Program-made: the position numbers and the translations under genes
Notes under the pieces: model-generated
Database searches by the model: none
Told to the model about the DNA's origin: nothing
Seen by the model: only the letters and a program-made list of their open reading frames with translations
Shown here: piece after piece, positions 2,200 to 13,109 of the stretch
How positions within the stretch are numbered: the stretch's first letter is position 1
Layout: every line of letters starts with the position of its first letter
Source of the DNA: Acidithiobacillus ferruginosus
GTDB lineage: Bacteria > Pseudomonadota > Gammaproteobacteria > Acidithiobacillales > Acidithiobacillaceae
Reading direction: 5' to 3'
Length of the DNA stretch: 27,569 bases
Assembly (NCBI RefSeq): GCF_018854495.1
Contig: NZ_JABBDR010000260.1
Coordinates: 1 to 27,569, forward strand

Positions 2200-3528
2200 T
2201 CAGGCTCCCATGATGGGAACACGCAGATGTACTCCGGGCTGCCCCTCTCCGTGCGGCAGATTGTTGGCCAGACGCAAAGCCTCTACGCTCAGCCCGTAAC
2301 GGTACGCCACATCCGCCAGATTTTCCGCTTTTCCCAGCACATGCCGCGTCGCAGACCACGCGCTATCCGCTGGTGGTGCGTTCACAAAATGGGCGAGGAC
2401 CGCGTCATGCATGGTGCGCGCAAGCAGTTGACGGAAATCCGGATCACGCAGGCGTTGCTCCTCCTGCGGGTTGGAAATAAAGGCAGTCTCCACCAGCATG
2501 GACGGCACATCCGGGGCGCGCAGCACTACGAAATTGGCGTGCTGCACGGCAGCGTTGTGCAAATCCTCCACCCCGGCCAACCCGCGAATCATCATATCCG
2601 CAGCAGCAGCCGCCGCGTTCATGGCAGCCGTCTGGGTCATATTGATGAGTACCTCGTTGAGCATAGGATCATGCACCCCCGATTGTACGTCGCCGAGGAG
2701 AGGATCAGCGGCATTCTGCGTTCTGGCCAGCCAGCGGGCCGCCGCACTGGTCGCCCCCGTTTGCGACAGCGCCCAGACCGTCGAACCGCTCACTGTTCGC
2801 TCCGGAAAGGCGTCCGCATGAATGGAGACGAAGAGATCGGCACGCTGCGCCAACCCCAGGTGCATGCGATCCATGAGCGGCACATAACGATCGGTATCAC
2901 GGGACATGACCAGACGCATTCCGGGGGTGCTGCGGATCAGTCGGGCCAGAGACAGGGCAACATCCAGCACGACATCCTTCTCGCGGGTCCCCCTGGCGCC
3001 GATGGCACCCGGATCGTGGCCGCCATGGCCGGGATCCAGGCAGACCACAATGGGCCGTCCCGCCCCGGCAACGGGGTGCGAACGGGAGGACTCCACCGCG
3101 GTTCCAGCGACGGGCATCAAGTCCAGCACCAGGCGCTGTGAAGCACCACCTCTGGGGCCCAGAGAGAAACTGTGCCAGCGTACCGTTTCCCGCAAAGGCA
3201 AGCGCAGCACCAGCCCGGCGGCGCTCTCGTTCATCTCCGCTCCGCCCTGCAGTGGTCCCAACGCAGGCACCACGGGACGGCCAAGCCAATGCTGTATACC
3301 GGGCAACTCGATATGCAGCACTTCACCCACACTACGGATCACCGGTGCAGCCGTCAAACGCCGGTTGAGATCAAAGACCAGACGCACACCCTGCCCGTAG
3401 CGGCCCACCCGCAGCCCACGGAGCTGCGCGGCGGCGGCCATATTCCAGCCGCACAACAATACGCCGCCCAGCGCAGCCTGTCGCAGGAACTGCCGCCTTG
3501 AGGAACCCGCATCAGATTTCCCGGCCAT
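2200..3528 (-). CDS. amiC: Tat-exported N-acetylmuramoyl-L-alanine amidase (AmiC type)
   Basis: This periplasmic zinc amidase cleaves the peptide stem from peptidoglycan, typically during daughter-cell separation. Domains in order over 442 residues: a twin-arginine signal (SRRQFLRQ, residues 10-17, followed by a hydrophobic stretch); an AMIN septal-targeting domain at about 37-138; the Amidase_3 catalytic domain at about 160-383 with zinc ligands His168 (DPGHGG), Glu183 (TREKD) and His237 (SIHADA) and catalytic Glu347 (LVETAF); and a degenerate LysM-like segment at about 395-440. The region at 275-335 resembles the regulatory helix insert of AmiB/AmiC that is relieved by EnvC/NlpD. A Tat signal matches E. 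coli AmiA/AmiC. The gene stands alone; a weak TTGACT element lies at 3592-3597 upstream. AmiB is the alternative name; the Tat signal favours AmiC. Confidence 0.93.
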   Translation of the reverse strand: MAGKSDAGSSRRQFLRQAALGGVLLCGWNMAAAAQLRGLRVGRYGQGVRLVFDLNRRLTAAPVIRSVGEVLHIELPGIQHWLGRPVVPALGPLQGGAEMNESAAGLVLRLPLRETVRWHSFSLGPRGGASQRLVLDLMPVAGTAVESSRSHPVAGAGRPIVVCLDPGHGGHDPGAIGARGTREKDVVLDVALSLARLIRSTPGMRLVMSRDTDRYVPLMDRMHLGLAQRADLFVSIHADAFPERTVSGSTVWALSQTGATSAAARWLARTQNAADPLLGDVQSGVHDPMLNEVLINMTQTAAMNAAAAAADMMIRGLAGVEDLHNAAVQHANFVVLRAPDVPSMLVETAFISNPQEEQRLRDPDFRQLLARTMHDAVLAHFVNAPPADSAWSATRHVLGKAENLADVAYRYGLSVEALRLANNLPHGEGQPGVHLRVPIMGA

Positions 3529-3612
3529 AGCGCCCCCACTATCCCTTATAAATGTTGAGTTATAGTGGTAAGTTAGAGCTTATCCGGAAGAAGTCAAGGT
3601 AATGCCCTGGTC

Positions 3613-4047
3613 TCAGACCCCCTGTCCTGCCAACCAGCGCTGAAGTTCCGCCGCACCCACGGCGCCGCTCATCCGCGCCAGCTCTTTTCCGGCCTTGAAA
3701 AGCACCATGGTGGGGATGGAACGAATCTGGAAGCGGCTACCGATTTGCTGTTCATCTTCGGTATTCACCTTGGCAAAGAGCACACGCCCCCGCATCGCCC
3801 GACCAGCCTGCTCAAACTGCGGTGCCATGGTTCGGCAGGGCCCGCACCAAGGGGCCCAGAAATCGACCAGCACCGGCAATTCGTTTTTCTGAATATACTC
3901 GGAAAAACTGCTACTGCTGAGATTGACGGGATGGTCAGGAAAAATCTGTGCGTGGCATTTGCCACACTTGGGGTTTTCTCCCAGACGCTCTTTGGGCACC
4001 CGATTGACGGCGCCGCAGGCAGGACAAAGCAATATCACGGATGTCAT
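3613..4047 (-). CDS. trxC: Thioredoxin 2 with N-terminal zinc ribbon
   Basis: This is a cytoplasmic disulfide reductase. The 144-residue protein begins with a zinc-finger of two CxxC pairs (Cys8/Cys11 and Cys28/Cys31), followed by a thioredoxin fold with the canonical WCGPC active site (Cys68, Cys71) and the cis-Pro loop RSIPTMVLF. This architecture is diagnostic of TrxC, which in E. coli is oxidative-stress inducible and zinc-regulated. The ATG at 4047 has a strong GGGGGAAG ribosome-binding site. It is the last gene of the efflux/thiol block, 30 nt after grxC, so it likely supplies reducing power to the module, reducing mixed disulfides or persulfides. No obvious terminator hairpin follows before the amidase promoter region. 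Confidence 0.95.
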   Translation of the reverse strand: MTSVILLCPACGAVNRVPKERLGENPKCGKCHAQIFPDHPVNLSSSSFSEYIQKNELPVLVDFWAPWCGPCRTMAPQFEQAGRAMRGRVLFAKVNTEDEQQIGSRFQIRSIPTMVLFKAGKELARMSGAVGAAELQRWLAGQGV

Positions 4048-4077
4048 AACTTCCCCCGATGTTTCATCGAACCGCTA

Positions 4078-4359
4078 TTATCCATCCCCCTGGCCATCTT
4101 CCTGCAACAGGGCATCCAGGGCACCGCGACGATCCAGTGCGGCAAGGTCATCATAACCGCCGACATGTCGGCCATTGATAAATACCTGCGGCACCGTATG
4201 CCGCCCATGTGCGAGCTTCAGCATGCTCTGGCGCAGCGCGGGGTCCCGGTCCACCCGGAGGATTTCAGGTGTGACCCCCTTACTGCACAGCAGCGCTTCG
4301 GCGCGCCGGCAATACGGGCAGGTGCCCGTCGCGTACATCCGCACCACCGCCCCTTTCAC
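4078..4359 (-). CDS. grxC: Glutaredoxin 3 (GrxC type)
   Basis: This is a small glutathione-dependent oxidoreductase of 93 residues. A dithiol CPYC active site (Cys14, Cys17) follows the first beta strand AVVRMYAT. The cis-Pro motif HTVPQVFING and the GGYDDLAAL glutathione-binding turn are present. I chose the GTG at 4359 because it retains the first beta strand of the fold; the ATG at 4338 would delete it, and a longer frame from 4395 would overlap the rhodanese gene by 34 nt. It starts 2 nt after the rhodanese stop, which indicates co-translation. In context it may resolve glutathione persulfide or mixed disulfides generated with the adjacent rhodanese (inference). Confidence 0.9.
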   Translation of the reverse strand: MKGAVVRMYATGTCPYCRRAEALLCSKGVTPEILRVDRDPALRQSMLKLAHGRHTVPQVFINGRHVGGYDDLAALDRRGALDALLQEDGQGDG

Positions 4360-4361
4360 GA

Positions 4362-4787
4362 TTACTTCTCTACCGGCAGCCCGGCACTCCGCCACGCGCC
4401 GATCCCGCCTCTCAGACTGTAAATCTTGTCAAAACCGGCTTTTTTCAGGCTGGCCGCGGCGCGCGATGAACGCATGCCACTCGCACACTGACAGATGACA
4501 TGATGGCCACGATGCTTCTCCAGATCCTGCATATATTTGGGCAAGTCACCCAGAGGAATGTGCCGGGCACCGGGCAGATGCCCCTGCGACCACTCTTTCT
4601 GCTCCCGCACATCGATGATTACCGCATCTTCATGGTTGATCAACTGTACCGCAGTCGCCGGGTCTACTTCATGGATACCCGCCGCCCTCCGCGTCAATGG
4701 CCCCTTGAAAATCATGATGATCAACGCCACGGCCCCAAGCAGCAAGGGCCACTGCGACTCGATAAAGAAAAGAATTTTATGGTCCAT
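4362..4787 (-). CDS. Membrane-anchored single-domain rhodanese
   Basis: Rhodaneses transfer sulfane sulfur through a cysteine persulfide. This 141-residue protein has one N-terminal transmembrane helix (about 10-28, LLLGAVALIIMIF), then a single rhodanese domain (about 38-138) with the catalytic loop CASGMR, active Cys101 and Arg106. Other family marks are VIIDVRE (residues 56-62), GHLPGARHIPL and the C-terminal GGIGAW. With the next gene it corresponds to the two halves of E. coli YgaP (rhodanese plus membrane domain), here encoded separately. Spacing is 3 nt from the DUF2892 gene and 2 nt to grxC, so it belongs to the efflux/thiol operon. The domain is probably cytoplasmic, by analogy with YgaP; topology is not proven. 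Confidence 0.92.
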   Translation of the reverse strand: MDHKILFFIESQWPLLLGAVALIIMIFKGPLTRRAAGIHEVDPATAVQLINHEDAVIIDVREQKEWSQGHLPGARHIPLGDLPKYMQDLEKHRGHHVICQCASGMRSSRAAASLKKAGFDKIYSLRGGIGAWRSAGLPVEK

Positions 4788-4790
4788 GGC

Positions 4791-5012
4791 TTAGCGTCCG
4801 CAGGCCCCGGAACCTGGCACTCCGAACTTGAGCAGGATGCGATCCAGTGGGCAGAAACAGGTGAAACCACTTTGCAGCAGGTTGAAACCCACAAAGAGGG
4901 TGACAACCAAAAACCACTCGCTCACAAAAACCGGACTGCCCGGAGCACCCAGCACCACGCTGAGCAATACAAAAAAACCGGCAACCACCCGCACCCAACG
5001 TTCAGTATTCAT
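4791..5012 (-). CDS. YgaP-like DUF2892 inner membrane protein
   Basis: This is a 73-residue protein with two hydrophobic helices (about 6-23 and 32-49). It contains the motif FNLLQSGFTCFCPLDRIL, characteristic of the DUF2892/YgaP membrane domain, with paired cysteines Cys52 and Cys54. In E. coli YgaP this segment is fused to a rhodanese; here the rhodanese is the next gene, 3 nt away. It begins 6 nt after the RND pump stop codon, with AAGGAG as ribosome-binding site overlapping the pump's last codons. The function of the domain is not firmly established. Roles in persulfide handling or thiocyanate release have been proposed for YgaP. The position between a pump and a rhodanese suggests it helps hand sulfur species to or from the membrane (inference). 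Confidence 0.88.
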   Translation of the reverse strand: MNTERWVRVVAGFFVLLSVVLGAPGSPVFVSEWFLVVTLFVGFNLLQSGFTCFCPLDRILLKFGVPGSGACGR

Positions 5013-5018
5013 CCGCAG

Positions 5019-8000
5019 TCAAGCTCCTTGTGTATGTTTTTCCAAGCGCCGCTCCCAGAGGAAATAGAGCAGCGGAATCACGATCAATGTCAGCAATGTG
5101 GAGGCGAAGGTGCCAAATATCAAGGAAACTGCCAGCCCGCCGAAGACCGGGTCGGTCACCATGATGGCAGAGCCGAACATGATGGCCAGCGCTGTCAGGA
5201 GAATGGGGCGGAAACGCACCGCACCGCCCTGCAGCACAGCCTCTTCCAGGGCGTAGCCCTGGCGCCGGTAGTCTATAATAAAGTCAATCAACAACAACGA
5301 GTTGCGCACAACGACACCGGCCAGGGCGATGACCCCGATCATGGAGGTGGCGTTAAACGGCGTGTTCAGCAGCCAGTGCCCGGGAAAAACCCCGATCAAG
5401 GTCATCGGAATGGCGCCCATGACGATCACCGGCATCATGAAAGACTGGTAGTAGGCCACCAGCATCAGGTAGATGAATACCAGGGCAACGATAAAAGCGG
5501 CGCCGAGGTCACGGAAGACGTCGAGGGTCAGACGCATGTCACCGCCCCAGAGAATCTGGTAATGGGTAATATCATCGGGCTGCGCAGGCGAAAAACCCAA
5601 ATTGGCGGTACTGAGATGCACACCGTCGATGGTCTTGCCGTCCAGCCAGTGATTCAGCGATAACACCGCGTAGACCGGGCTGGAACCCATCAGATCTCCG
5701 GTCACGTATACCACGGGATGTTGATCACGGTCATAAATTGGCTTGGCCTGCGTCGTCCTTTCGATCCGCACAATACTCGCCAGAGGCACCTGCTGCCCGC
5801 TTCGGCTCTGCACATGCAGGTCGAGTATCTGCTGCTGCCAGGCGCGATCCGTCTGAGGCATGCGGAGGACGATATCCACCGGTTCGCGGGCATTTTTCAC
5901 ATGCAGGGCACCCAGTTTGGTACCTGCCACGTAATCATGCACCAGCGCAGCTACCTGAGCCGGTGCGACCCCGGCCAACATGGCCTTCTGCCGATCCACA
6001 TGCAGCAGGTATTCAGGTACCGTCGCCGTCACCGAGTCATCCACATTGATCATGTCGTAGACTTTACGGAAATATTGCTCGACCGAACCCGCTACCTGAC
6101 GCAGCTTCCCATAGTTCGGCCCGTAGAGTTCCGCCACCACCTGAGCACGTACCGGGGGCCCCGGCGGCACCTCGAAAATCTTGATGACGGTGCCCGGAAA
6201 ACGCTCCCGGACGGGCTGCAGCGCCTTATAGATTTCCACGGACACGGCATGGGACATGGGTCGCTCATCCCGCGGCACCAGGTTGATCTGAATTTGCGCG
6301 TAATTGCTGCCTTCGCGCATCATGTCACCGCGCACCAGTCCCGCGAAGTCCACAGGTGCAGAACGGCCCAGATAGGTCTGAAAATTTTCGACATAGCGAT
6401 TGCGGCTGAGCACATTGCCGATCGCTTCCGTGACCTGTCCGGTCTCGGCCAGCGCGGTACCCGCTGGGGTATCTACCTGTATCATGAAATCACTGACATT
6501 ACCCTCCGGCAGCATCTTCAGGTTCACCCCGAGGGCACTCAGGGGACCATTCATGCCCTGAGGGCGGGTAAACTGCCACATCGGCATCAGCATCGCCAGC
6601 AGAAGTAGCACCACCACCACAATGAAAAAGACATTGCGACGCGCGGAGGATTTCAGCAGGGGCGTAAACACCCGGAGGTATCCACGCTGCAGAGCGTCCG
6701 GCCGCATCGCATGCCCACCTTTCTCACCGCCGACCTGCCGGTCGGCTTTGCCCCGCAGAAAGCGGTACGCCCCCCAGGGCACCACGGTATAGGCGAGCAG
6801 AACCGACGCAATCATGGCAATTGGCACAAAAATAGGGATGGGCAACATGAAGGGCCCCATCATCCCGGTCACAAAGGCCATCGGCACGAAGGCGAGAATC
6901 ACCGCCAGCGTGGCTATATTCGTCGGATTGCCGATCTCATTGCTGGCAGTGATGATACAGCGAGCGAAACCATCCTTGCCGCAGCCATGCAAATGGCGAT
7001 GTATGTTTTCGATGACAACGATACCGCCATCCACCAGCAATCCCAGCGACAGAATGAGCGCGAACAGGGTGATCCGGTTGATGGTCTGCCCGAGCAGCCA
7101 GCCGATGCCCAGCACCATACCCAGGGTAAGCGGCACCGTCAGAATAACGATACCCGCCTCCCGCCAGCCGAGGAATATCATCAGGATAACCGCGACGACC
7201 GCGACCGCGATGCTGAGGTGCTCGAAAAGGGTACTGACTGCATCATCGGCACGGGCGCCGTAATCACGGGTGACAGAAACATGCACACCTTCCGGCAGCA
7301 CCTCCCGCTCCAGACGATCCAGTTTCGCCTTGATCGCGTCCGCGACGGTCACGGCATTGGTCCCCGGGCGTTTGGCGAGGGTAATGGTAACGGCCGGCAT
7401 GGTCGTACCCGCCGGCAGGCCGACCCGGTTTGCACGCCCAAGGGTATTACTGGTCGCAATGTGATTTTCCGCGGCACCTTCTTCCACCCGGGCCACGTCC
7501 TTCAGAAATATCGGTTGCCCGTCATGGCTGCCGATAATGAGGTCACCGACTCCCCGCGCCGAACCTATCGCCCCATTGATGCGCAGGGGAATTTCCTGAT
7601 TGTCGTGCACCAGGTGGCCACCCGGAAGAATGACATTGCTCCCCCTCAGCGCCTGCTGGATATCCTGCAGACTGAGGCCGACACCGGAGAGCTTGGCTGG
7701 ATTCAGCCACACATTGATGGCCAGAGGGCTGCCGCCGATCACTTCGGCGTTCGCCACATCCGGCACACTCTGTAGCCGGTTCATCAGCCGCACGCCGACC
7801 TGGCGCAATGCCAGAGGCGTCATCTGGCTGGAGCTCAGAGTCACCGACATGATCGGAACATCATTGATGCCTATGGATTTAACCAGGGGCTGTTCCGTAC
7901 CGGGGGGCATTTTGTCCATATTTCGGCTCAGCTGGTTGTAGACTTCCAGCAGGCTTTTTTCTTCATTGGCGCCGACCTGAAACTCGACGGTGACCACCCC

Positions 8001-8294
8001 CATATCATTGATTGCGTAACCATAGGTGTGATGGACACCAGGCAGGGATGCCATCAGCGCTTCCAGCGGCCGTATCACCAGATGGTGGATCTCCTCGCTG
8101 TCAGAGCCGGGCCGCATGATGAATATTTCAGCAGCGGGCACCACGATTTCCGGGTTATACAGACGCGGCGTGACAAGAATCGCCAAGGCCCCAAACAGGG
8201 CAATGGCCACCATGATCAACACCGTGATCTTGGATCGATAAAACGACTGAGCGAGCCGCCCCGCCAGATTTTGCCGCTGCTCGGACTCAGCCAT
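5019..8294 (-). CDS. RND-family efflux pump, inner membrane permease
   Basis: This 1091-residue pump is of full RND length. It has an N-terminal helix (about 22-41), a large periplasmic loop (about 45-355), a first helical bundle (about 358-508), a central helix near 555-573, a second periplasmic loop (to about 925) and a C-terminal bundle (about 930-1080). TM4 reads LLVDGGIVVIEN: Asp422 is kept, the second Asp of AcrB-type pumps is Gly423, and Glu429 is retained, as in heavy-metal RND pumps. TM10 reads VVVRNSLLLIDF, so Arg997 replaces the usual Lys of AcrB. The pump is therefore neither a typical drug nor a typical metal exporter by its proton-relay residues. Its ATG overlaps the adaptor gene stop by 8 nt, indicating translational coupling. 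The substrate is unknown; thiol and sulfur genes immediately downstream suggest a sulfur-linked or electrophilic compound. Confidence 0.92.
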   Translation of the reverse strand: MAESEQRQNLAGRLAQSFYRSKITVLIMVAIALFGALAILVTPRLYNPEIVVPAAEIFIMRPGSDSEEIHHLVIRPLEALMASLPGVHHTYGYAINDMGVVTVEFQVGANEEKSLLEVYNQLSRNMDKMPPGTEQPLVKSIGINDVPIMSVTLSSSQMTPLALRQVGVRLMNRLQSVPDVANAEVIGGSPLAINVWLNPAKLSGVGLSLQDIQQALRGSNVILPGGHLVHDNQEIPLRINGAIGSARGVGDLIIGSHDGQPIFLKDVARVEEGAAENHIATSNTLGRANRVGLPAGTTMPAVTITLAKRPGTNAVTVADAIKAKLDRLEREVLPEGVHVSVTRDYGARADDAVSTLFEHLSIAVAVVAVILMIFLGWREAGIVILTVPLTLGMVLGIGWLLGQTINRITLFALILSLGLLVDGGIVVIENIHRHLHGCGKDGFARCIITASNEIGNPTNIATLAVILAFVPMAFVTGMMGPFMLPIPIFVPIAMIASVLLAYTVVPWGAYRFLRGKADRQVGGEKGGHAMRPDALQRGYLRVFTPLLKSSARRNVFFIVVVVLLLLAMLMPMWQFTRPQGMNGPLSALGVNLKMLPEGNVSDFMIQVDTPAGTALAETGQVTEAIGNVLSRNRYVENFQTYLGRSAPVDFAGLVRGDMMREGSNYAQIQINLVPRDERPMSHAVSVEIYKALQPVRERFPGTVIKIFEVPPGPPVRAQVVAELYGPNYGKLRQVAGSVEQYFRKVYDMINVDDSVTATVPEYLLHVDRQKAMLAGVAPAQVAALVHDYVAGTKLGALHVKNAREPVDIVLRMPQTDRAWQQQILDLHVQSRSGQQVPLASIVRIERTTQAKPIYDRDQHPVVYVTGDLMGSSPVYAVLSLNHWLDGKTIDGVHLSTANLGFSPAQPDDITHYQILWGGDMRLTLDVFRDLGAAFIVALVFIYLMLVAYYQSFMMPVIVMGAIPMTLIGVFPGHWLLNTPFNATSMIGVIALAGVVVRNSLLLIDFIIDYRRQGYALEEAVLQGGAVRFRPILLTALAIMFGSAIMVTDPVFGGLAVSLIFGTFASTLLTLIVIPLLYFLWERRLEKHTQGA

Positions 8295-9369
8295 GGGTAG
8301 CTCCCGCTGGCTCGATGTGATCTCCGTTATTCACGGCGGCGAGATTGCCCACGACCACCGTCTCTCCCGCACTCAGCCCCGAAAGAATTTCCACACCCTC
8401 CGGCGTGCTCGGACCCGGTCGCACCATGCGATAATGCGCGACACCTTGGGCGTCAACGACAAAAACACCGGGGATTCCGGCCCGATCCAGCAAGGCAACC
8501 GCTGGCACTGTCATCACCTGCCGCTGGGTGACCGGCACTTCCACGCTGACATAGTCGCCAGCCTGTAGCGTACTGTCGGCGGGTAGGCTGAGCTTGACCG
8601 TATGGGCATGGGTCATCGCGTCTGCAGCCCCGACCAAATCCAGAACCGTTGCGGGAACACGTTTTCCCTCGGCGAGGACCGCGACTTTCTGACCGATCTG
8701 GAGGCTGTGATACAGCGTCCCGCTGACACTGCACTGGACTTCCAGTCGCGAGGTGTCCGCGAGGGCCAGAATGGGCTGACCGGGTGACGCGAGGTCTCCG
8801 TTCTGCAGGAACTTGCGCGTGATGATCCCGGAGAAGGGCGCCGTTACCCGGGCGTAGCGCAGTTGTGACCGCGCCGTGCCGACCCCGCCGCGGGCGGCTG
8901 CAACACGGGCCTGCGCCATGCCATAGGCCGACTTTATCTGGTCCCACTGTTGCTTGGGAATAGCCTTCTGAGCGTACAGGATCTTGAACCGCTCATAATT
9001 GGAGCGGGCGTCGGTGAGCGCCGACTGAGCCTCAGCCAGCCCCGCCTGCGCCTGCTGCACCTGCCCTACGACATCCGTCGGATCTACCTCAAAAAGCAGT
9101 TGTCCCGCCTGCACCGACTGTCCGTCACGCACACTCATGGAGTGGATGTAACCACTCAGACGCGAGCTGAGCTGCACCTGCTGGCGGGCAACGACCGTAC
9201 CCGGCACACGGGCGAAGGCAGCCATACTTTGATTCCGCGTCTGCAGGACGGGCGCAGAGACTTTACCCTGCGCCAGGGGCGCCTCGGGAGGCGATTTACC
9301 GCAGGCGGCGAGGCTTGCCATAGCGAATATCAGGGCCGCAATCCGCGCGGTACGCTTCCGGGTGTTCAT
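8287..9369 (-). CDS. RND periplasmic adaptor (membrane fusion) lipoprotein
   Basis: This adaptor links the inner membrane pump to the outer membrane channel. The 360-residue precursor has a lipoprotein signal ending SLAAC, so Cys23 should be lipidated. It is followed by a beta-barrel/lipoyl half (SGYIHSMSVRDGQSVQAGQLL, given here by position 72-92), an alpha-helical hairpin (about 103-170), the second lipoyl half (VTAPFSGIITRKFLQNGD at 175-192) and a C-terminal beta-barrel and membrane-proximal domain. The start at 9369 is set by the signal peptide, a GGAG ribosome-binding site, and an ATGA overlap with the tolC-like stop codon; a longer in-frame extension upstream merely reads through the neighbouring gene. 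It belongs to the HlyD/AcrA family and its partner is the adjacent RND pump. Confidence 0.93.
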   Translation of the reverse strand: MNTRKRTARIAALIFAMASLAACGKSPPEAPLAQGKVSAPVLQTRNQSMAAFARVPGTVVARQQVQLSSRLSGYIHSMSVRDGQSVQAGQLLFEVDPTDVVGQVQQAQAGLAEAQSALTDARSNYERFKILYAQKAIPKQQWDQIKSAYGMAQARVAAARGGVGTARSQLRYARVTAPFSGIITRKFLQNGDLASPGQPILALADTSRLEVQCSVSGTLYHSLQIGQKVAVLAEGKRVPATVLDLVGAADAMTHAHTVKLSLPADSTLQAGDYVSVEVPVTQRQVMTVPAVALLDRAGIPGVFVVDAQGVAHYRMVRPGPSTPEGVEILSGLSAGETVVVGNLAAVNNGDHIEPAGATHG

Positions 9370-10787
9370 TGGGAGACTCCTTCCGCGGTGGGCACACTGC
9401 TCACACCGACGATTTCCTGAGGGTTCAGTTTGCCGATGGCCAGCAACAGGGCACCACGGTCTGTCGCTTCCGCATAACGGGCGGAGACAAGCTCGGCACG
9501 CGTCTGATCCAGCTCCGCCTGTCCGCGCAGCAGGCCCGTCACAGTCTCTATGCCATTTTCGTAACGCAGGCGCACCATATGCTGCGCCTCCTCCATCTGC
9601 CTGACCGCAAGCTCCCGCATCCTGACCCGCAACGCGGCCTCCCGCGCGCTGCGCCAAACCTGCGCTACCTCCAAACGCAACTTATCCTGCGCCTCCTGTA
9701 ACGCAGCCAGAGTCTGCTCGTGCTTCGCCCGGGCGCGATCCAAACTGCCGCCCCGCGCGAAGTCGAGCACATTCCAGGTTACTTCTCCACCTACCGTGTA
9801 GGACGGCGCCGCATTGCCGAGAGTGCGGCCATTCCATTCCTGATTGGCCATCGCATTGATATGCGGCAGATAGGCGGCGCGGGCGATGCCGATACCTTCC
9901 TGCGCCGCTTTGACCTGATGGCGGAGGGCGACGATACCCGCATTCTGGGCCATCGCATCGCTCTGCAGGCTGCTGAGCGGCGCCGCAGGCAATATGGGCC
10001 GAACAGGGCCGTCCACGGTGAGCGTTTTTTCTTCCGGCCAACCGATCAACGTGGCAAGATTATCCAGGGCATTAGCCCGAGCATTCCGCGCACTTTCGAT
10101 GGCCAGTTCCGCCTTTTCCAGATAGACCTCCGCGGACAACAGATCGCTTTTTATCAGCACCCCGCGCGCCAGCAGGGAGCGGCTGGTTTTGACATACGAT
10201 GCGGCTGCCCGCTTGGCTTTATCCGCTACCTCAATAGCCGTGTCCGCGGCGACCACACCGTCATAGGCCTTGAGGACGGCATAGACCAGCTTCTGCCGGG
10301 CCATGGTATTTCCGCTCCGGGCGGCCTCCAGCATGGCCCGCGCCTGATCGATGCGCCCCCGGATTTCCCCGCCATTCCAGATCGGAATTTCCATTTGCAG
10401 CTTGGTACCGAAATTATGGTAGCCACCCGGTTGATCCAGCCCTGTCGGCGCCACACCCAGCGCATTCGGGCTGAACTGTCCCGCGCCAAAATCGTTGAAC
10501 GTTGCCTGCCGCTGCGACAGCTTCATGCCGAACACCGTCAGGGCATTGTTCGACTGGCTGGCAGAGAAAGAGGCCGCGAGCTTAGGAAGCAGATGACCAC
10601 GCGCCTCGGAAACTGCGCCCTGGGCTTCTGCTTGTCGGGCATGGGCCACGAGCATCTCCGGATTTTGTCTGAGGGCAAGATCAACGCACTGATTGAAGTC
10701 CAGGGCTGCGGCGGGTAGCGACGCACCGGTACCCATGAGCAGGACGATTAAAATGGAGCGTGTTTTTTTATGAGGACGAAAGGGCAT
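9366..10787 (-). CDS. TolC-family outer membrane efflux channel
   Basis: This 473-residue outer membrane factor forms the exit duct of the tripartite pump. The ATG at 10787 is preceded by GAGGAAAG at good spacing and opens a classic Sec signal (basic MPFRPHKKTR, hydrophobic ILIVLLMGTGASL, then PAAA before ALDFNQ). A longer frame exists upstream but lacks a ribosome-binding site. Two repeats of the OEP domain follow, each with long Ala-, Gln- and Glu-rich helices (for example around LALRQNPEMLVAHARQAEAQ, and near the C-terminus VRLRYENGIETVTGLL, a typical TolC-family signature). It is the first gene after the candidate regulated promoter at 10948-10976, and its stop overlaps the adaptor start by ATGA. 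A 161-nt or so untranslated leader is predicted. Confidence 0.92.
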   Translation of the reverse strand: MPFRPHKKTRSILIVLLMGTGASLPAAALDFNQCVDLALRQNPEMLVAHARQAEAQGAVSEARGHLLPKLAASFSASQSNNALTVFGMKLSQRQATFNDFGAGQFSPNALGVAPTGLDQPGGYHNFGTKLQMEIPIWNGGEIRGRIDQARAMLEAARSGNTMARQKLVYAVLKAYDGVVAADTAIEVADKAKRAAASYVKTSRSLLARGVLIKSDLLSAEVYLEKAELAIESARNARANALDNLATLIGWPEEKTLTVDGPVRPILPAAPLSSLQSDAMAQNAGIVALRHQVKAAQEGIGIARAAYLPHINAMANQEWNGRTLGNAAPSYTVGGEVTWNVLDFARGGSLDRARAKHEQTLAALQEAQDKLRLEVAQVWRSAREAALRVRMRELAVRQMEEAQHMVRLRYENGIETVTGLLRGQAELDQTRAELVSARYAEATDRGALLLAIGKLNPQEIVGVSSVPTAEGVSQ

Positions 10788-10939
10788 ATCTTTCCTCGCC
10801 GCGACAGGCGACACCAAAGCTCGGACAACCCAATGCTGCAAAGTCCGGGCAATACCAGCACGAATCCCCACTGCGGACGAACCGTCGATCCCGACCGGGC
10901 ATCAATGGCCGCGCCCTCAGTGGCGCACATAAGAACATC

Positions 10940-10952
10940 AGAATATTATTCT
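10940..10952. promoter_or_regulatory. Candidate ArsR-type operator (13-bp perfect dyad)
   Basis: AGAATATTATTCT is a perfect inverted repeat (6-bp arms, one central base) lying over the downstream half of the -10 box of the efflux operon promoter. ArsR/SmtB regulators commonly bind AT-rich dyads of this kind and repress by blocking polymerase. The dyad is seen directly; binding by the adjacent regulator is inferred. Confidence 0.45.
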
Positions 10953-10976
10953 ATAATGCAACCTATGCACATTCAA
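10948..10976 (-). promoter_or_regulatory. Candidate promoter of the tolC-RND-thiol operon
   Basis: On the minus strand TTGAAT (-35, 10971-10976) and TAGAAT (-10, 10948-10953) are separated by exactly 17 bp. The same TAGAAT -10 is used by the predicted tRNA-Gly promoter. The start point would be near 10941, leaving a long leader before tolC. The -10 overlaps the 13-bp dyad. Confidence 0.5.
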
Positions 10977-11034
10977 GCGCCCCCTAACGGCCGAGGGTCC
11001 ATCCTTCCCGCCACTCGGTACTATGCGGCAGTAT

Positions 11035-11337
11035 TCAACGGACGCTGCAGAAAACATCGCTCATCATGGAAATCAGGCGCAGGGTACGGGGGTCACCTAC
11101 GCGGTAATACACCTTGTTGGCATCCTTACGGGCACGAAGAATATCTTTCTCACGCAAAATAGCGAGATGTTGGGAGATGTTGCTCTGAGTAGTGCCGACG
11201 GCGGACACGATATCCTGCACACTCATCTCATCCGATCCCAGCACGCACAAAACCTTGAGGCGCAGCGGGTGCGCCATAGCCTTCAGGGAACGGGAGGCCT
11301 GTTCAATATCCTCTTCACGGGTTGGTAACTGTTCCAT
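11035..11337 (-). CDS. ArsR/SmtB-family regulator with SqrR/BigR/YgaV-like cysteine pair
   Basis: This is a 100-residue winged-helix repressor. The core AMAHPLRLKVLCVL (about 20-33), SVQDIVSAVGTTQSNISQHLAIL (about 39-61) and DANKVYYRVGD wing define the ArsR fold. I prefer the ATG at 11337 because AAGAGG sits 7 nt before it; an in-frame ATG at 11343 lies too close. There is no ELCVCDL metal box. It has only two cysteines, Cys31 in helix 2 and Cys97 in the C-terminal helix (DVFCSVR), spaced 66 residues. This matches, from memory, Cys41/Cys107 of SqrR, where the pair forms a polysulfide bridge. The protein ends at the second Cys as E. coli YgaV does. It lies upstream of the efflux operon on the same strand, separated by 247 nt containing a dyad/promoter, and likely represses that operon until reactive sulfur or oxidant appears. 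Confidence 0.9.
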   Translation of the reverse strand: MEQLPTREEDIEQASRSLKAMAHPLRLKVLCVLGSDEMSVQDIVSAVGTTQSNISQHLAILREKDILRARKDANKVYYRVGDPRTLRLISMMSDVFCSVR

Positions 11338-11412
11338 AATCATGCCTCTTGGTGTATAGTATCTTGTTGACTTCGCTTATAATTACCAAAAACCGCGGTG
11401 CTTGCGGTCACC

Positions 11413-11441
11413 TTGCCTTTTTTTGGCCATCCGCATAGAAT
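11413..11441 (+). promoter_or_regulatory. sigma70-type promoter for tRNA-Gly
   Basis: TTGCCT (-35, 11413-11418), a 17-bp spacer, and TAGAAT (-10, 11436-11441) place the start within a few bases of the mature tRNA 5' end at 11451. Sequence seen; activity inferred. Confidence 0.6.
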
Positions 11442-11450
11442 CCACCACAA

Positions 11451-11524
11451 GCGGGTGTAGTTCAATGGCAGAACCTGAGCTTCCCAAGCTCATGGCGTGG
11501 GTTCGATTCCCATCACCCGCTCCA
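11451..11524 (+). tRNA. tRNA-Gly (anticodon CCC)
   Basis: A complete cloverleaf: acceptor GCGGGTG pairs with CACCCGC, D-arm GTTC...GAAC, anticodon stem TGAGC/GCTCA enclosing TTCCCAA (anticodon CCC), T-arm TGGGTTCGATTCCCA, discriminator T and encoded CCA. It closely resembles bacterial tRNA-Gly(CCC), which reads GGG codons. It is a singleton gene between the arsR-type regulator and ubiD. No strong terminator hairpin is visible in the 112 nt that follow, up to the ubiD stop. Confidence 0.95.
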
Positions 11525-11636
11525 TTTCAAATGCAAGGTTCAGGTCACCGCCACAACGCCGACTTTAATACCCATCAGTGATTAAGAATAACCCCATATG
11601 AGTATTTAAGGAACCCCGCACCCCTTCCATGCGCAT

Positions 11637-13109
11637 TTAGAACAGCGGCCGATCCAGCGCCAGCAACAGGTCATCCACTCGTTGGCGCACCACGGCAGTC
11701 ATCTGGATGGGGCGGCCCCATTCCCGGGCAGTCTCTCCGGGCAGTTTGTTGGTGGCGTCCATCCCCACCTTACCACCGAGTCCGGCAACCGGCGAAGCGA
11801 AGTCGAGATAATCGATGGGTGTATTTTCGACGGGGGTAATGTCGCGCACCGGGTCCATCCGGGTGGTCATCGCCCAGATCACATCTTCCCAACGGCGCAC
11901 ATCGATGTCTTCGTCCACCACGATGATAAACTTGGTGTACATGAACTGTCGCAAAAAGCCCCAGATACCGAACATGACCCTTTTTGCATGACCGGGGTAA
12001 CCCTTGCGGATACTGACAACGGCCAGACGGTAGGAACAGCCCTCCGGCGGCAGATAAAAATCCACGATTTCCGGGAACTGTTTCTGCAGCAGGGGCACGA
12101 AGACTTCGTTGAGGGCCGCACCCAGTATGGCCGGTTCATCGGGGGGTCGGCCGGTGTAGGTGCTGTGGTAAACAGGATTTTCGCGGTGGCTGATGGTTTC
12201 CACGGTGAACACCGGAAAACGCTCGGCCTCATTGTAGTAGCCGGTGTGGTCTCCAAAAGGCCCCTCCACCGCCATGTCATCCGGATAAATATGCCCTTCC
12301 AGGACGATCTCCGCGCGCGCGGGCACCTGTAGCGGGACGCTCAGGGCATTGGCGAGCTCGGTACGCCCGCCACGCAGCAGACCGGCGAACTGGTGCTCGG
12401 AAATGGTATCGGGAATAGGAATGACCGCCGCCAGGATGGTTGCCGGATCGGCGCCGTAGGCTACGGCAACGGGGAATGGCTCGCCCGGGTGCGCTTTCTG
12501 GAATTCTCGCAGGTCCTGGGCCCCCCCCCGGTGCGCCAGCCAGCGCATGATCACCCGGTTACGACCGATGACCTGTTGCCGGTAGATACCCATGTTGGCC
12601 CGCCGCTTGTGTGGCCCTTTGGTCACGGTCAGGCCCCAGGTCATGAGCGGCGCCGCGTCTTCGGGCCAGCAGGTTTGCACCGGCAGGGCGGCAAGGTCGA
12701 CCCCATCTCCGCGCAGGATGATTTCCTGGCAGGGAGGGCGACTCAGGGTGGTCGGTGCCATGTACAGGATCTTGCGCAGGGTGGGCAATTTGTCCCAGAG
12801 GTCGCGCAGACCGCGGGGCGGGTCAGGTTCCTTGAGATAGGCCAGTAACTGACCGATCTGCCGGAGATCCGCCAGGGATTCGCCCCCCATCCCCAGCGCC
12901 ACGCGTTCCGTCGTCCCGAACAGGTTGCCCAGCACCGGCATGTCGTAGCCAATGGGCTGGGTGAACAGAACGGCCGGCCCTGCCGCCCGCAAGGTTCGGT
13001 CACAGATTTCCGTTATCTCCAGTTTGGGAGAGACGGGCACGCTCAGCCGGCGCAGTAAATCGCGCTTTTCGAGATCGGCCAAAAAGGCGCGAAGGTCACG
13101 GTAGCTCAT
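11637..13109 (-). CDS. ubiD: UbiD-family prFMN-dependent decarboxylase (ubiquinone biosynthesis)
   Basis: UbiD decarboxylates 3-polyprenyl-4-hydroxybenzoate in ubiquinone synthesis using prenylated FMN made by UbiX. The 490-residue product is close to the usual 490-500 and very similar in remembered alignment to E. coli UbiD. Conserved blocks include [13 protein letters not shown] (172-184), the [11 protein letters not shown] loop (189-199), the prFMN/metal motif [13 protein letters not shown] (282-294), [13 protein letters not shown], and [14 protein letters not shown] near the C-terminus. It is the last gene of a minus-strand run, 24 nt after the PhnD-like gene. The coding strand contains a run of nine G (12521-12529) inside the HRGGAQ codons, an unusually long homopolymer for an essential reading frame. 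ubiX is not in the window. Confidence 0.95.

Follow-up and report, generated by a model that had tools for sequence, protein, structure and literature searches.

An RND efflux operon with rhodanese and thiol-reducing genes behind a putative persulfide-sensing repressor in Acidithiobacillus ferruginosus

Why should the genes of an efflux pump be packed tightly with those of a rhodanese, a glutaredoxin and a thioredoxin? The question is raised by a locus of Acidithiobacillus ferruginosus (assembly GCF_018854495.1, contig NZ_JABBDR010000260.1) lying in a window of 27,569 nucleotides (nt), the whole stretch of DNA analysed here. An arsR gene is followed in this locus by genes for the channel, adaptor and permease of a resistance-nodulation-division (RND) pump and for DUF2892, rhodanese, GrxC and TrxC proteins. 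The initial annotation had read it as a reactive-sulfur operon combining sensing, export and thiol repair, with a split YgaP among its parts; the sensor type, the single regulated unit and the link to sulfur stood up to analysis, and the split YgaP did not. We consider it somewhat probable that the operon is a sulfane-sulfur-responsive efflux and repair unit derepressed by persulfides. The regulatory part of this reading is well supported by sequence comparison, and the pump would export a sulfur-bearing compound.

All eight genes lie on the minus strand (Table 1). The spacing of -8 to 30 nt given earlier for the seven genes behind arsR matched the junctions read from the sequence: tolC and the adaptor gene overlap by 4 nt and the adaptor and permease genes by 8 nt, followed by gaps of 6 nt (permease/DUF2892), 3 nt (DUF2892/rhodanese), 2 nt (rhodanese/grxC, the latter with a GTG start at 4359) and 30 nt (grxC/trxC). 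The start of tolC is most likely the ATG at 10787, which has a GAGGAAA-like site and is aligned in relatives; a GTG at 10871 is disfavoured. Between arsR and tolC there are 247 nt holding a promoter-like site and an AT-rich dyad, and arsR is thus not tightly joined to the other genes. The tight spacing, the dyad and the conserved gene order support one regulated unit, as had been proposed, and Pfam and NCBIfam searches confirmed the family named for each of the eight genes.

Table 1. Features of the arsR-RND-rhodanese locus, with positions in the window.
Feature	Position	Strand	Basis
arsR, ArsR/SmtB-family repressor, Cys33 and Cys99, SqrR/BigR/YgaV-like	11035..11343	-	Pfam HTH_5; NCBIfam ArsR/SmtB above cut-off
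Promoter-like site TTGAAT-17-TAGAAT, -10 inside dyad	10948..10976	-	promoter scan
Operator-like dyad ATAGAATAATATTCTGATGT	10935..10954	.	motif discovery; overlapping match, 8 nt shifted, at 10927-10946
tolC-like outer-membrane channel	9366..10787	-	Pfam OEP 184 bits; start from alignment of relatives
RND periplasmic adaptor, lipobox LAAC	8287..9369	-	TIGR01730 228 bits vs cut-off 94.9; lipobox read from translation
RND permease, 1091 aa	5019..8294	-	Pfam ACR_tran 519 bits
DUF2892/YgaP-like two-helix membrane protein	4791..5012	-	PF11127 45.6 bits vs 25.3 gathering score
Membrane-anchored YibN-like rhodanese, active-site loop CASGMRS	4362..4787	-	Pfam Rhodanese 80 bits
grxC, dithiol glutaredoxin 3, CPYC	4078..4359	-	TIGR02181 106 bits vs cut-off 90
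trxC, thioredoxin 2 with zinc ribbon	3613..4047	-	NF008229 159.7 bits vs cut-off 125

Homologous loci were collected by a permease-alignment scan of named genomes; the best 80 of 327 confirmed stretches gave 81 loci with the window, at which genes were called using profiles made from the proteins that the window encodes. Eighteen loci were too short upstream and 12 too short downstream, leaving 55 readable on both sides. A second set consisted of 36 of 40 genomes from a phylum draw, the window's genome excluded, at an identity of at least 45% (G036, G153, G084 and G056 were left out, the last three being partial), and 24 of the remaining, more distant RND matches served as an outgroup. The gene-neighbourhood search proposed in the initial annotation recovered the full order arsR-tolC-adaptor-RND-DUF2892-rhodanese-grxC-trxC in Acidithiobacillus species and in betaproteobacteria, examples being Sulfuriferula, Sulfuricella, Parasulfuritortus and Thiobacillus. 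An arsR gene stands upstream in 31 of the 63 loci with enough flank; downstream of the pump (n=69), DUF2892 was found in 48, rhodanese in 38, grxC in 38 and trxC in 34. The two ends of the operon tend to occur together: 27 of the fully flanked loci carry both arsR and rhodanese, 23 neither, four rhodanese only and one arsR only, and the 31 readable loci of the second set divide into 21 with both and 10 with neither, none being mixed. Among the outgroup pumps, 23 of 24 with both flanks, 18 had neither gene, four rhodanese only and one arsR only. Several outgroup pumps are accompanied by DUF2892 and a divergent arsR (L157, L220, L222, L224 and L229), and a cysteine pair was recognised by eye in the ArsR of L157 and L222 among these and in that of L218, encoded on the same strand; together with the four that have a downstream rhodanese, they extend the association past the clade in a looser form. 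Seven other RND regions fetched from the A. ferruginosus genome, four of them with full flanks on both sides, showed no rhodanese downstream; set against the conservation in Acidithiobacillaceae and betaproteobacteria, this indicates a gene order beyond chance. An arsR match beside another RND gene of that genome (L230, 26 bits) proved spurious.

In the second set, 29 of 36 loci belong to one family (f48), the Zetaproteobacteria (Mariprofundus and Ghiorsea). Nineteen of the 26 zetaproteobacterial loci with downstream sequence carry arsR, pump and DUF2892 genes plus three rhodanese genes (L143-L148, L150, L152, L190, L191, L193-L197, L202-L204 and L207); the six printed in full encode, by reading, one membrane-anchored-looking rhodanese, one with a lipoprotein-like signal and one that looks soluble. 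Three-rhodanese pump operons in iron oxidisers were unexpected. At locus L153 the order is arsR-tolC-adaptor-RND-rhodanese-trxC.

The window ArsR has two cysteines in total, C33 and C99, 66 residues apart, and the pair aligns with the one in solved SqrR-like and BigR chains. Among proteins of known structure, the best relatives of the regulator are the ArsR chains 13ct/6o8l (SqrR), BigR, NolR, HlyU and YgaV. The SqrR/BigR/YgaV character assigned to the regulator at the outset is upheld by this alignment and by the presence of just two cysteines. Against the BigR equivalog model NF040642 it scored 73 bits, under the cut-off of 155, and the protein is classed as a relative and not as BigR itself. 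Metal sites of ArsR/SmtB proteins are built from CxC motifs or from His/Asp residues. Metal sensing was rejected, the window protein having only two Cys, none as CxC, and its last helix lacking His. All 33 of 33 loci, the window among them, keep the two cysteines, as do 23 of 24 in the second set; the ArsR of L153 (L153:13782-14132) has Asp at the first cysteine position and another cysteine further upstream, and its sensing may differ, so the pair is kept nearly always and not always. The spacing of 66 residues is also that of BigR (42/108; PMC5823870) and of sHdrR (50/116; PMC12423496). A second ArsR of the A. ferruginosus genome (L231:647-1090, G000:C181) has a similar DNA-binding region and keeps the first cysteine, the last one being absent.

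A palindromic motif search on the arsR-tolC gaps of 31 of the 33 arsR loci (all but L068 and L083) returned ATATtAgaATATtcTaATAT. That all 31 gaps contain it is by construction, because the search assigns one site to every sequence. Cross-prediction is the fair test; for it L068 and L083 were included, and the scored gap took in 160 nt of the tolC frame. When a matrix from betaproteobacterial sites was run over 17 Acidithiobacillus loci, the window among them, the gap came first in 16 and within the top three in all 17, the best match in the window sitting in the register shifted by 8 nt. The Acidithiobacillus matrix placed the gap first in 12 of 16 other loci and in the top three in 15, and L083 failed cross-prediction (rank 9). 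On the phylum set the combined matrix ranked the gap first in 8 of 24 loci and in the top three in 18, a site upstream of arsR often ranking equally. Such an upstream operator has a plausible site in many beta- and zetaproteobacterial loci and not in Acidithiobacillus, and a motif search upstream of arsR returned the tRNA gene. Pumps without arsR also have the dyad: at 42 such loci the motif ranked first before tolC in 26, scoring at least 15 in 21 and below 15 in five, and these first-ranked sites include Halothiobacillus, Guyparkeria and Zetaproteobacteria. With up to two mismatches, the dyad pattern was found at five places in the A. ferruginosus genome and its reversed control at none; recovery of the operon's own sites is no test, because the pattern was made from them. 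Patterns including ATTC-N8-GAAT, the SqrR motif, gave scattered matches, and GAAT-N3-ATTC in the window is the core of the dyad later found without that motif. The promoter-like site is the only one on the minus strand in 10700-11640, and as two sites on both strands were found against 1.0 expected, the promoter rests on its position. The dyad covers its -10 element, and BigR likewise recognises the -10 region of its own operon (PMC5823870).

The thiol genes had been explained as a YgaP fusion split in two and coupled to the pump. The rhodanese matches Escherichia coli YibN end to end, with the membrane helix inside the match (74.7 bits over 138 residues), and YgaP in the rhodanese domain only (48.1 bits over 103 residues). 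A common YgaP lineage for rhodanese and DUF2892 was therefore rejected; the DUF2892 protein alone, at 35 bits against the membrane part of E. coli YgaP, is, judged by its sequence, a genuine relative of that part. The motif CxxGxR[ST] is present in 102 of 102 rhodanese frames of pump loci. GrxC scored 99 bits with a second glutaredoxin 3 model, under its cut-off of 129, and its next best match in the same genome reached 49.9 bits (36% identity). In E. coli K-12, envC-gpmM adjoins yibN-grxC-secB-gpsA, an operon also described in PMC12282094, and betaproteobacterial pump loci are flanked by ctpA-envC-gpmI and by secB-gpsA (families confirmed on L138). Because these flanks match and the YibN match is full-length, the rhodanese-grxC pair is most simply seen as the old yibN-grxC pair, in front of which a pump operon would have been placed. 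The E. coli locus resembles the window in having a membrane rhodanese followed by grxC, but has no ArsR or pump; in A. ferruginosus the four-gene adjacency is reduced to rhodanese-grxC, secB-gpsA lies elsewhere (secB on C127) and trxC is added.

This ancestry also feeds the rival that survives best, namely that the thiol genes are passengers: a pump operon would have landed before the housekeeping genes yibN-grxC-secB-gpsA, leaving the pump as the sole sulfur-stress gene and the rest merely sharing its promoter. The betaproteobacterial flanks fit such a landing, and the pumps of Halothiobacillus and Guyparkeria stand without rhodanese, grxC or trxC beside them, the operator-like dyad still being present. 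We nevertheless regard it as unlikely, since each of 19 Acidithiobacillaceae loci (19 of 19) keeps rhodanese, grx and trx beside the pump although secB-gpsA is elsewhere in the genus, and since other rhodaneses or trxC are joined to the pump in Zetaproteobacteria and in L153. A survey of secB loci bears on the same point; it covered, out of 196 secB genomes, the best 30, with flanks of about 1.5 kb, and is therefore biased to relatives of the query and blind farther out. Within these limits grxC was present at 23 loci and rhodanese at 15, and trxC at 4 of 6 pump-linked loci against 0 of 24 others. Three loci (L251, L254 and L266) have a cysteine-pair ArsR immediately in front of rhodanese-grxC-secB-gpsA and no pump in the stretch fetched, which also argues against mere passengers; there the sensor may control the yibN locus alone. 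Acidithiobacillus sulfuriphilus (L023) retains trxC-secB-gpsA behind the pump operon; the best-match secB loci of 16 of 17 Acidithiobacillus genomes (16 of 16) had no rhodanese, grx or trx within about 1.5 kb. The proposed coupling of pump and thiol genes is not universal, as Halothiobacillus and Guyparkeria illustrate.

In an RND permease tree (quick method, midpoint root, long branches flagged) Acidithiobacillus forms one clade beside Halothiobacillus and Guyparkeria and outside the betaproteobacterial loci. A recent transfer of the whole operon from betaproteobacteria was rejected on this placement, which agrees better with an ancient common arrangement that was later lost in places, or with an early exchange. 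In a short, weakly rooted rhodanese tree the betaproteobacterial pump-linked rhodaneses mix with secB-linked ones, and Acidithiobacillus is not placed.

Permease, periplasmic adaptor and outer-membrane channel occur together as a tripartite RND efflux system. The permease had 7637 homologues at E<=0.001 among 8000 scored, and one annotated as A. ferridurans is 98% identical to it. It falls below every NCBIfam RND subfamily cut-off, the best score being 446 bits against 1250. This best match is of the multidrug type, the CusA/CzcA model giving 290 bits, and the family profile scored 305 bits with MexK, 289 with MdtB, 235 with ZneA and 217 with CusA chains. At residues 422-423 the window permease has a single Asp (VDG) and MdtB a pair (VDD). 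An alignment of 18 sequences showed no variation at Asp422 or Arg997, Lys being usual at the position of Arg997, and a changed proton relay is possible from these residues.

Acid-mine bacteria face high metal loads, and the pump might expel metals, or metal-sulfide or metal-thiol complexes formed when sulfide meets metals, with the sulfur sensor acting as a proxy. A parallel is Azospira suillum Dsui_3440-3443, found by Bar-seq, which like the window encodes an RND permease and adaptor and is highly expressed under H2S (PMC5358917), but contains a sulfide:quinone oxidoreductase (SQR); the likeness is one of gene content and expression. The authors of that study read the sulfide induction of the RND genes in terms of metals (PMC5358917). 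For the present operon we judge this quite improbable, as the permease is nearer to multidrug-type than to CusA/CzcA proteins and to MexK/MdtB than to ZneA/CusA chains, the operon has no metal-binding protein and the ArsR lacks metal-site cysteines. RND permeases are often polyspecific, yet a pump for electrophiles or drugs in general, controlled by a thiol-redox sensor and with sulfur as one inducer of several, is very unlikely next to sulfur-transfer and thiol-reducing enzymes in place of electrophile-detoxifying ones, even though ygaVP provides a precedent: it is also derepressed by tributyltin (PMC9774250).

The reading as a sulfane-sulfur efflux and repair unit would work as follows. From the arrangement in the window, ArsR would sit on the dyad over the -10 element of the tolC promoter and keep the operon off. 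Persulfides and polysulfides should abound in a cell that feeds on sulfur and metal sulfides; going by homology, either would bridge Cys33 and Cys99 and release the repressor. In the cytosol GrxC and TrxC may then reduce protein or glutathione persulfides or mixed disulfides, and the membrane-anchored rhodanese, beside the DUF2892 protein, may take up sulfane sulfur at the inner membrane. As the least certain step, the RND-TolC pump might expel a sulfane-sulfur-bearing small molecule from periplasm or membrane, candidates being an organic persulfide or polysulfane, a long-chain polysulfide or sulfur itself.

Several findings weigh against this scheme. RND pumps load from the periplasm or the outer leaflet and GrxC, TrxC and the rhodanese domain are predicted to be cytosolic, so a hand-over step is missing; the lipoprotein-like rhodanese of Zetaproteobacteria hints at a periplasmic carrier. 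L153 has the operon with an ArsR devoid of the first cysteine, and pumps of the same clade exist that have neither arsR nor rhodanese (23 of 55; 10 of 31). Four Thiomonas loci with tolC flank showed no convincing dyad. Over 17 Acidithiobacillus genomes the dyad pattern gave 110 matches against 37 for the reversed control, so perhaps a third of the matches are chance sites. The loci share ancestry, which makes all counts descriptive and not a tally of independent events. Mariprofundus is an iron oxidiser and has the system, which is thus not confined to sulfur oxidisers. In Azospira, deletion of the RND/SQR operon left the H2S oxidation rate unchanged (PMC5358917).

Known systems resemble parts of the operon. 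Like the window, E. coli ygaVP combines an ArsR-type repressor that has the cysteine pair with a rhodanese function and a membrane domain of the YgaP type. It has no pump, GrxC or TrxC in the annotated stretch, and YgaP is a rhodanese-DUF2892 fusion, whereas the window rhodanese is separate, YibN-like and has its own membrane helix. The bigR operons of Xylella and Agrobacterium (BigR, Blh) likewise unite an exporter and a sulfur transferase with a cysteine-pair repressor that occupies the -10 region (PMC5823870); their exporter, however, is a TauE-type sulfite transporter and not an RND-TolC system, and the window operon has no persulfide dioxygenase. Sulfane-sulfur ArsR repressors have been stated in general terms to appear to act on RND pump genes (PMC12423496); section 2.1 of that paper differs from the present account in giving no operator, operon anatomy, thiol module or history. 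An RND protein, AFE_2367, was raised in A. ferrooxidans biofilms on pyrite (PMC6450195), and a rhodanese, AFE2364, appears in PMC2621215; from their locus numbers, both would be candidates for this operon. Searches of open-licence papers yielded no description of the operon, its operator or the yibN-grxC-secB link, nor of a wider regulon with sulfur reductase and bo3 oxidase or of the operon's history; the supplement of PMC12423496 may list the operon. The excerpts of PMC12053936, PMC10128140, PMC7315123 and PMC10451225 contain nothing on it.

The dyad may mark a wider regulon. Of the five places in the A. ferruginosus genome, two are in the window gap, one is on C281 and two (G000:C298:8786-8805 and 8875-8894; L107 and L158) lie directly before a four-gene molybdopterin reductase operon. 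The reductase comes nearest to thiosulfate reductase PhsA, at 308 bits and under the cut-off, and the other three genes encode an Fe-S subunit, an NrfD subunit of polysulfide-reductase type and a delta-type chaperone; by sequence the operon is most likely one for sulfur reductase, known in the literature as sreABCD. It is present in 3 of 17 genomes of the genus, with dyads before it in all three. Of 28 loci from the 17-genome scan, 13 were read: two are before sulfur reductase and six (L170, L178, L181, L183, L185 and L187) before cyoA. In these other Acidithiobacillus the dyad has cyoA, for a bo3-type quinol oxidase, on one side and a divergent HchA/DJ-1-like gene on the other, behind which stands a probable rpiA (by reading); two of the six CyoA proteins were tried with models and scored below the cut-offs. 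The similar dyads suggest that ArsR also acts on sulfur reductase in some species and on bo3 oxidase in others; the sre and cyo sites are rich in A and T, and binding by a different regulator is conceivable. Earlier work had shown that sre is expressed solely in the absence of oxygen, and in anaerobic wild-type A. ferrooxidans the sreA, sreC and cyoBCD transcripts were higher, sreB not being detected (PMC12016491). The dyad on C281 (G000:C281:102219-102238; L108) lies between two TonB-receptor-like genes (by reading), and G399 and G403 contain a 20-nt sequence identical to it.

A broader proposal, which we put forward tentatively and hold to be possible though not probable, is that these pumps represent a widespread RND class for small-molecule sulfane sulfur. 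They would be loaded by rhodaneses in the membrane or the periplasm, controlled by a persulfide repressor through one kind of operator (about ATATTAG-N6-CTAATAT) in Acidithiobacillia and beta-, gamma- and Zetaproteobacteria, and in Acidithiobacillus switched together with sulfur reductase or a terminal oxidase. Little is known of how cells dispose of excess reactive sulfur other than by oxidising or reducing it, and the operon suggests a dedicated candidate route. To our knowledge, most RND pumps are without a known natural substrate; by linking a persulfide sensor, a probable operator, an RND pump and rhodaneses, the operon provides a candidate pump that can be named, and suggests what YibN- and DUF2892-type membrane proteins might do. 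Among the sulfur- and metal-oxidising bacteria that bioleaching employs, it may determine how much sulfide and polysulfide is tolerated.

At the 3' end, trxC is followed by a gene that reads as N-acetylmuramoyl-L-alanine amidase-like. Five terminator-like sites were found in 3300-5100 against 2.0 expected, none of them between trxC and this gene, so the operon could read on. The 5' flank of arsR is formed by a tRNA-Gly gene and ubiD.

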